A DNA stretch of 37,488 nucleotides from Methanobacteriota archaeon (GTDB lineage: Archaea; Thermoproteota; Thermoprotei_A; Sulfolobales; Sulfolobaceae): positions 1 to 37,488 of the forward strand of contig JAFMDM010000003.1 of assembly GCA_017857195.1 (NCBI GenBank), in the 5' to 3' direction. The notes under the pieces were generated by a model. The model made no database searches, was not told the DNA's origin, and saw only the letters and a list, made by a program, of their open reading frames with translations. A program made the translations under genes and the position numbers. Below are positions 6,791 to 9,508 of the stretch, one piece after another; position 1 is the first letter of the stretch; each line of letters opens with the position of its first letter.

Positions 6791-7330
6791 CTACGTTAAA
6801 CCTAACAGATACTTGGACAGAGCCGATGCAATAACATGCGCTGCCCTAATTGGCTCAGGCTTTCTATCGAAGACCTGATAAAAGTCCAACAGCTTCCTAA
6901 TTTCGGGAAGTGATATCCCAGGCGAGTAAACGAAGACGTCCCCCTGCCTAGTTGAGATCTTGGAGAGCGACCTCATTACTCCCAATATGACGTTAGCTCT
7001 CCGCCTATCGTTTGGAAAATGTTTCGATAATGCCCTCTCCACCTCCTGTACGTTTGGAGGAACGGAGTAGAATACAATTGACCTTGAGTCCGGCTCAATA
7101 TAATTGAACCCTCCATAAATGACGCCGTCAAGCAGTGCCACACCTTCGCCTCTCATCTTCAGAAATGTGTCGGAAGCGTCCTCACCGTCGACGGTTATCG
7201 TGGAGAAGTCAACCCTTCCAATCTCCAATCCTACAAATTCCACAATTGCCAATATGGTCTTACCTTTGCGACCCTTGAAGTGAGAAGGGAAATAGCCGTC
7301 ATCAACTCCATATACTAACCAATCGCTCAT
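6791..7330 (-). CDS. DUF99/UPF0215 family protein (endonuclease V-like fold)
   Basis: [17 protein letters not shown]...TILAIVEF...[13 protein letters not shown]...[17 protein letters not shown] extends to 7396, but the Met codons near 7324-7330 fit the family start better. Overlaps the 3' end of orc1/cdc6. Confidence 0.72.
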
Positions 7331-8489
7331 CCTCATTGAGAACCTCCATAATTGACCTACGATCGATGGAAAGTTTAATCTCCTTGGTTTTACCATATCT
7401 ACCCCTGTTTACAACAGAGGCCGTTATGACTCCCAACATGTCAAGCTCATTAAGTATATCGCTGACCCTCCTCTGAGTTACACTCTCCAGACCTAATTTC
7501 CTAGTAAGGGACCTATAGATCTCAAACACCTCCCCCGTGGTCAGGGGCCTTTCCCTCCTAGATCCGTCAACAATAGAGAGAAGAACCAATTTGGAGTGAA
7601 AAGGTAAAGTCTTGATCACATCATGCATCCTATCACGCTCAATTTCTGTCCTGGCTTCGTAGACCTGATCTGCGGTAACAATAGATTTCCCTTGTCTCTC
7701 GGCTATCTCTCCGGCCACCCTAAGCAGATCTAGAGCCCTACGGGCGTCTCCGTGCTCCCTTGCCGCCAAGGCCGCACATAGCCTTATTACATCTTCATTT
7801 ACTACCCCTGGCTTGAACGCCACAATAGCTCTTCTCTTGAGAATGTCCTCTAACTCAACTGCGTTATAAGGAGGAAATACCTGCTCAACTTCACCTAGAC
7901 TACTTTTCACCCTAGGATCCAACTCATCCACAAAGGTTACATCGTTGGTGATCCCCACAATAGAAACCTTACTTCCCGAAAGTTCTCCATTGATTCTGGT
8001 GAGACGATAGAGTAACTCATCCCCATGTCTCTTGATTAATGCGTCGACCTCATCCAAAACCAAAATGATCACCTTCCTTGCATCATTCAATGCTCTTTGG
8101 AGTCTTCTATGTAGCTCGGCGGTAGAAAGACCCGTGAATGGTACCTTACCTCCCAGGAACTCAATTACATCAGCCATTACTCTATAAGGTGTGTCCGTTT
8201 GTCTAACATTAACATAGGCAAAGGAAAATTTATCTGGAGCGCGTTTATGGAGGTTGGATAGGACAAACTTAGTTACAGCGGTCTTACCAGTACCAGTAAG
8301 ACCATAGATGAAGAGATTGTTGGGCACCTCACCTTTGACTGCATGAACCAGGACGTTGCCTAAGGCCTTGATTTGTTCTTCCCTATGCGGAAGTTCATCT
8401 GGGACGTACTCAGGTCTCATATAGTCCCTACTTCTAAAGATGGTTGACTCTTGCACTTTCGCAACTATTCCGTCTATGATATCACTCAT
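7302..8489 (-). CDS. cdc6: Orc1/Cdc6 replication initiator (Orc1-1/Cdc6-1 type)
   Basis: 395 aa; Walker [13 protein letters not shown], Walker [10 protein letters not shown]-terminal winged helix; ORB-like sites directly upstream; TATA-like tttataaa about 30 bp upstream. Confidence 0.93.
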
Positions 8490-8716
8490 TATACCTATCA
8501 GGTTAAGACATACACTTTATAAATGACGTGACAGCGAGGGGGAGTTAAGATGACGATAGTCAGTGACTAAGATGTTGAGATGCAATAATAATGAATCCCT
8601 TACACTCTCTGGAAACCTAGAATTCCTTTACTTTCATATATGAGGAGATTTAACCGGGGAGTTTAATCATTGATTCAATGTGTCCTATTAATAACTACTC
8701 TTAACTGGGGAGTAAA

Positions 8717-8739
8717 AGACCCCTCTGTTTCCACTGGAA
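8717..8739 (-). promoter_or_regulatory. Origin recognition box (ORB)-like element A
   Basis: Minus-strand TTCCAGTGGAAACAGAGGGGTCT: dyad TTCCAGTGGAAAC plus G-string GGGG. Confidence 0.82.
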
Positions 8740-8778
8740 ATCATCTCAGTTACATTTCATTATTTCATAACTACAGGG

Positions 8779-8801
8779 AGACCCCTCTGTTTCCACTGGA
8801 A
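8779..8801 (-). promoter_or_regulatory. ORB-like element B
   Basis: 23-bp sequence identical to element A, same orientation, 62 bp away start to start. Confidence 0.82.
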
Positions 8802-8914
8802 GGGCAGCTAGTGGAATAACGATATACTTAGCGGTTTGTATATTGGTTGTTAAGAACCTTTGAAATAACATCGGGATCTATTTTGAACGCATAGTTTCTT
8901 CACTCATCTGCAGT

Positions 8915-8937
8915 CTCCAGTAGAAACGGAGGGGTCC
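8915..8937 (+). promoter_or_regulatory. ORB-like element C (inverted)
   Basis: CTCCAGTAGAAACGGAGGGGTCC, 19 of 23 positions identical to A/B on the opposite strand. Confidence 0.78.
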
Positions 8938-8944
8938 GCCAGTC

Positions 8945-9508
8945 CTAATAAGGTATGGAAACCTTGATCTTTGCCCTATCATTTATCACTGTGGCCTCCA
9001 CCACTACACCATTGCAGTTTTTCCTCATTGTAATAGTATCTTGAGCTACCTTCACCTTGAGTGGTGGACATTCCATCACGGTCTTTATTTTGCTCTTATA
9101 GTATGGATTCCTTATTTTCCTTAGAGCTCTGTCTAAAGACATCTTAAAAAGCGCGTTCGGATCGAATGATTGATCAATGTTCTTCAGCCACATCCTTATT
9201 TCCAGTCTTTCCTCATCATATGAGACCTCGATTTTATTGTAGAAGTTTATGGTCAGATAGGAAACTATTAGAGGAGCGGCCAACGAGTAAGCCAGGATAC
9301 CATAAATGAATTTTTGCAGTAATGGAAATCCGAAATATAGAAACAATGTACCTAACGCTGAGAGGGGAAGTGAGATTAAGACATATTTAATTGTCTGTAA
9401 GAAGTCCGAACTCTGCCTCCCGATCAGAACTCCGCTCAGGGGAGGACCAACTATTGGTATCAACGACGTAAAACTTGCAAGCTTTAAAAATGTCCTCCCC
9501 TCCACCAT
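8945..9508 (-). CDS. Hypothetical membrane protein
   Basis: 187 aa with hydrophobic N-terminal half; stop codon lies 7 bp from ORB-like element C. Confidence 0.6.
   Translation of the reverse strand: MVEGRTFLKLASFTSLIPIVGPPLSGVLIGRQSSDFLQTIKYVLISLPLSALGTLFLYFGFPLLQKFIYGILAYSLAAPLIVSYLTINFYNKIEVSYDEERLEIRMWLKNIDQSFDPNALFKMSLDRALRKIRNPYYKSKIKTVMECPPLKVKVAQDTITMRKNCNGVVVEATVINDRAKIKVSIPY

Follow-up and report, generated by a model that had tools for sequence, protein, structure and literature searches.

A predicted oriC1 with three ORB boxes in a second Sulfodiicoccus-type species and a palindromic element abutting its ORB1

The locus described here, part of a 37,488-nt stretch of DNA (the window), is very probably the Sulfolobales replication origin oriC1, and belongs to a second, uncultured Sulfodiicoccus-type species. 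Since the same order of elements recurs across the Sulfolobaceae and the origin of the sister genome has already been predicted, it is an ordinary oriC1, of an already-known type in a new species, and by analogy with relatives it would be expected to fire in the source organism. The origin call itself being ordinary, the part of the locus worth following is a 16-bp palindromic element next to ORB1, for which the chances of its being an origin-linked protein site are judged to be slightly better than even.

Architecture of the origin

In Sulfolobus, oriC1 contains three ORBs, of which ORB2 and ORB3 are inverted around a duplex-unwinding element (DUE) holding the 11-bp ucm, and firing in S. islandicus requires each of ORB2, ORB3 and ucm (PMC12141716). 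The ucm is a short motif common to all three origins, bound by a non-initiator protein, UBP, which was found via affinity purification with a ucm oligonucleotide (PMC12141716). The corresponding features of the window are collected in Table 1.

Table 1. Features of the oriC1 locus (positions within the window)
Feature	Sequence	Position	Strand	Basis or remark
orc1-1/cdc6-1 initiator gene, 395 aa, intact		7302..8489	-	TIGR02928, 436 bits; NF001625, E=1.4e-149
Candidate orc1-1 TATA box	ATTTATAAAG (minus-strand reading)	8515..8524	-	Read from sequence
Second palindrome copy, 1 mismatch	TTAACCGGGGAGTTTA	8650..8665	+	Motif match
16-bp palindromic element	TTAACTGGGGAGTAAA	8701..8716	+	1 bp off outer end of ORB1
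ORB1	TTTCCAGTGGAAACAGAGGGGTC	8718..8740	-	Sequence match
ORB2	CTTCCAGTGGAAACAGAGGGGTC	8780..8802	-	Sequence match
Candidate duplex-unwinding element, 111 bp, between ORB2 and ORB3		8803..8913		Role inferred from Sulfolobus oriC1 (PMC12141716)
ucm-like motif	GTTTGTATATT	8834..8844	+	10/11 match to GTTTGTATAAT
ORB3	TCTCCAGTAGAAACGGAGGGGTC	8914..8936	+	Sequence match

The 23-mer AGACCCCTCTGTTTCCACTGGAA was found in two identical minus-strand copies (8717-8739 and 8779-8801), as a sequence-only reading of this DNA had claimed, and the plus-strand 19/23 match which that reading placed at 8915-8937 was reproduced, together with the polarity proposed for the boxes, with dyads facing inward and G-strings outward. 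ORB3 is the weakest of the three, and forms with ORB2 an inverted pair around the candidate unwinding region. The motif scan suggested at the same time was run over the whole assembly (1.78 Mb, 193 contigs, 87.7% complete) at ≤3 mismatches and with a reversed-motif control; it returned the three boxes of the window and one site on contig C92, while the control gave 0 matches. The C92 site was considered as a further origin box and discarded, as it sits within a transporter-like ORF, and the cluster in the window is the only one in the assembly.

The boxes had been described as flanking an AT-rich stretch. The interval between ORB2 and ORB3 is only mildly AT-rich, its GC content being 37.8% vs 43.9% for the whole window, with equally low values met in 12% of windows of the same size. 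This interval contains the sole ucm match of the 37 kb at ≤1 mismatch, the sequence GTTTGTATAAT being the reverse complement of the published ucm ATTATACAAAC; both this match and the two palindromes had been overlooked in the earlier reading. GC skew over the 37 kb was uninformative.

The boxes had also been placed upstream of an orc1/cdc6 gene, and such a gene does adjoin them, identified by TIGR02928, NF001625 and its top PDB match, 2qby_A ('Cell division control protein 6 homolog 1', 516.6 bits). Its candidate TATA box is separated from the start codon by about 26 nt. On the other side, the end of a 187-aa ORF (8945-9508, minus strand) without NCBIfam match is 8 bp from ORB3; a 188-aa ORF in a similar placement (L127, 2799-3365) adjoins the origin of genome G043.

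The oriC1-type assignment, advanced in the sequence-only reading, is borne out by the three ORBs with the right polarity, the ucm between ORB2 and ORB3, the adjacent orc1-1 and the conservation across the family, as well as by the origin already predicted for the sister species, in which the same parts occur (PMC6647314). As the ORBs sit upstream of orc1-1, they might instead be mainly operators through which Orc1-1 autoregulates its own promoter, the locus not being, or no longer being, an origin. This explanation is considered highly improbable, since the inverted ORB2/ORB3 pair with ucm in between is the arrangement that fires in S. islandicus (PMC12141716), the relatives G007, G043 and G045 keep their ORB cluster away from orc1-1, and the ORBs of the window stand about 200-450 bp off the orc1-1 promoter.

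If the locus works as oriC1 does in its Sulfolobus relatives, Orc1-1 from the neighbouring gene would occupy the three ORBs in a fixed polarity, the melting region would lie between ORB2 and ORB3, ucm would be bound by a UBP-type protein, and MCM would be loaded at the melting region, from which forks would depart both ways. The palindrome abutting ORB1 would be a further, separate origin element.

Comparison with relatives and number of origins

The Sulfolobaceae loci examined have clustered ORBs and a ucm match, most of them showing the order ORB1-ORB2-ucm-ORB3. Within the genus, an oriC-1 with three ORBs and UCM has been predicted for Sulfodiicoccus acidiphilus HS-1 (PMC6647314), and the stretches of genome G001 matching the window, between 87,094 and 87,328, fit the position of that origin (87,046-87,335). 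Both species share nearly the same ORB sequence and spacing, the UCM, a single intact orc1/cdc6 and a palindrome abutting ORB1, whereas the window has a weaker ORB3 and about 150 bp more between ORB1 and the orc1-1 start, a stretch which contains the second palindrome. The oriC1 of Saccharolobus/Sulfolobus (S. islandicus, S. solfataricus) has in common with the window the ORB1-ORB2-ucm-ORB3 order, the inverted ORB2/ORB3 pair and the neighbouring orc1-1; its activity has been experimentally tested, while the origin in the window is known from sequence. In other families of the order, ORB-bearing origins away from orc1-1 were observed, as in G045 (L121) and G043 (L127).

HS-1 was reported to have one cdc6 and whiP (PMC6647314). 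The source assembly likewise contains one full orc1/cdc6, and its whiP, on contig C175, stands in the neighbourhood typical of oriC3, where a ucm match is also present. Neither the source assembly nor G001 yielded an orc1-3, this being weaker evidence for the former because that assembly is 88% complete; unlike Saccharolobus/Sulfolobus, the genus of the window seems to lack orc1-3/oriC2. With the origin described here, a genus apparently running two origins (oriC1 and oriC3) and not the usual three gains a second species. A second orc1-like gene of G001, probably orc1-2, is split by a frameshift (915,130-916,238; L105, 3969-5311) and was left uncounted in the HS-1 paper; the gene may be a pseudogene, or the frameshift an error in sequencing. 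In both genomes of the genus, the interval between NAD kinase and whiP encodes a protein containing two HTH stretches of AsnC type (L106, 7034-7804; L102, 6405-7172); this protein was not seen at the corresponding position of the other oriC3 loci compared.

A palindrome at the outer end of ORB1

In the family-wide comparison, conservation extends beyond ORB1 into TTAACTGGGGAGTAAA, an element built of 6-bp palindromic arms around GGGG. Two copies, 51 bp apart, are present at the oriC1 of the window, and one at that of the sister genome. In 30/30 Sulfolobaceae origins, a gap of 0-1 bp separates the palindrome from the outer end of ORB1, and none of the ORB2 and ORB3 boxes detected in these genomes carries it. 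Outside the family, it stands at two ORBs in two f4 genomes and at one in the f6 genome G045, an outer ORB being abutted in these relatives; it is absent from the ORBs of G041 (f2) and G033 (f4).

The fixed 1-bp junction would agree with the palindrome being part of an extended ORB1 which Orc1-1 itself contacts. Nevertheless, ORB2 and ORB3 are without it, and the palindrome is also present at the ORB-less oriC3 and on plasmids, which makes such an extension an unlikely explanation. It is also unlikely, though a little less so, that the palindrome acts as an operator in the transcription of orc1-1 and other genes and is not an origin element. About 85-110 bp separate it from the orc1-1 match in many genomes, and many distant copies are intergenic, as an operator might be; against this, it keeps a fixed spacing of 0-1 bp from ORB1, whereas the two congeners, with the ORB1 junction unchanged, differ by about 150 bp in how far it lies from the orc1-1 start. 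Moreover, a promoter operator does not fit the palindrome-bearing f4 and f6 genomes, because their orc1-1 is located away from the origin and the G043 origin lies between convergent genes, with no obvious promoter. Several genomes, finally, carry copies around oriC3 within the NAD-kinase and neighbouring coding genes.

Palindrome copies at the other origins

The Sulfolobaceae genomes contain 4-50 copies each at ≤1 mismatch, the reversed control giving 0-2. Of 115 copies counted over 12 complete genomes, with positions transcribed from separate genome scans, 52 lie ≤4 kb from orc1-1, orc1-3 or whiP, where 1.18 would be expected; the corresponding binomial P (4e-71) overstates independence because the genomes are related. 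No copy of the 115 was found in the vicinity of orc1-2. Counted by genome, the palindrome occurs near whiP in 12/12, near orc1-1 in 11/12 and near orc1-3 in 8/11, and at oriC3 a pair typically brackets ucm, about 1 kb on each side. In the low-copy genomes G003, G013 and G001, the palindromes are mostly at origins.

The palindrome is linked to origins by its position, while roles in protein binding, firing, segregation or regulation, as well as the reason for the plasmid copies, are conjectural. We infer that a symmetric dimer of a putative host protein binds the palindrome at oriC1 as well as at the other origins, and that related sites are present on pNOB8-type plasmids. More broadly, and with somewhat less than even confidence, the GGGG-core palindrome may be an unrecognised origin element shared by the Sulfolobaceae (at ORB1 in oriC1, near orc1-3 in oriC2, on both sides of oriC3), bound by a putative host protein that would coordinate or position the origins, with plasmids and some viruses carrying a related site. 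Where three origins with three different initiators fire almost together, the palindrome, common to all three besides ucm, would offer a concrete handle on this near-synchronous firing. In the literature search on the 16-mer and its variants, which covered few subscription papers, no origin or archaeal paper was found, and the palindrome at origins is apparently unstudied.

Several known sites and proteins were compared with it and rejected. SegB sites are likewise palindromic, several per chromosome and in part near origins, but their published TCTAGASTCTAGA-type motif is unrelated in sequence to the 16-mer, and they are centred on the segAB locus (PMC12284271). The ucm/UBP site (ATTATACAAAC, PMC12141716) is also a short motif at all three origins, though of unrelated sequence, and the palindrome lies outside ORB1 and not between ORB2 and ORB3. 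The AspA-ParBA centromere, a palindrome of 23 bp immediately preceding aspA, does not correspond either: the 16-mer is missing from the 22.7-40.0 kb portion of pNOB8, which includes aspA-parB-parA at 35.1-37.8 kb. As regards WhiP, copies flank whiP, but WhiP alone is insufficient as the binder, because the WhiP-bearing families f3 and f8 and genome G033 have none or one.

Mobile elements and inversion of the core

The plasmids pNOB8, pYN01 and pB12E5 carry 20, 16 and 17 copies, respectively, of the variant TAAACTGGGGAGTTTA (≤1 mismatch; L199, L200, L201). This repeat has the same GGGG core and inner arm letters as TTAACTGGGGAGTAAA, but its outer letters are TAAA/TTTA instead of the TTAA/TTAA of the chromosomal element, and its many copies are scattered. 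Early papers on pNOB8-type conjugative plasmids reportedly describe a 'recombination motif', and the plasmid side may for this reason be partly known.

The 16-20 copies per plasmid, this reported motif and a core which inverts while the arms stay could all be accommodated if the palindrome were a site of recombination, or a relic, that conjugative plasmids have spread and that has no role at origins. This explanation would, however, not predict the fixed junction with ORB1; the sequences flanking the pNOB8 copies are unrelated, and the low-copy genomes keep theirs mostly at origins, so that this possibility is rated low, marginally below that of an ORB1 extension. An origin-linked protein site is the reading preferred here. 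With ORB1 as the reference, the core is GGGG in genera g1, g3, g6, g7, g10 and g11, and CCCC in g4, g5, g8 and g9; on an Orc1-1 tree with simplified outgroup labels, this amounts to about three changes, at least two of which are forced by well-supported branches. A dimer reading the arms and tolerating either orientation of the core would fit these flips, whose source might be inverted-repeat-mediated microinversion.

The regions holding distant clusters of the palindrome encode HerA-type proteins in both G004 and G016, and in G004 TraG- and ParB-N-type proteins as well. The palindrome was also detected on 67 viral contigs, a number which is not counted as enrichment, as many may be chance matches; copies are held by contigs which we take to be STSV1, STSV2 and ATV.
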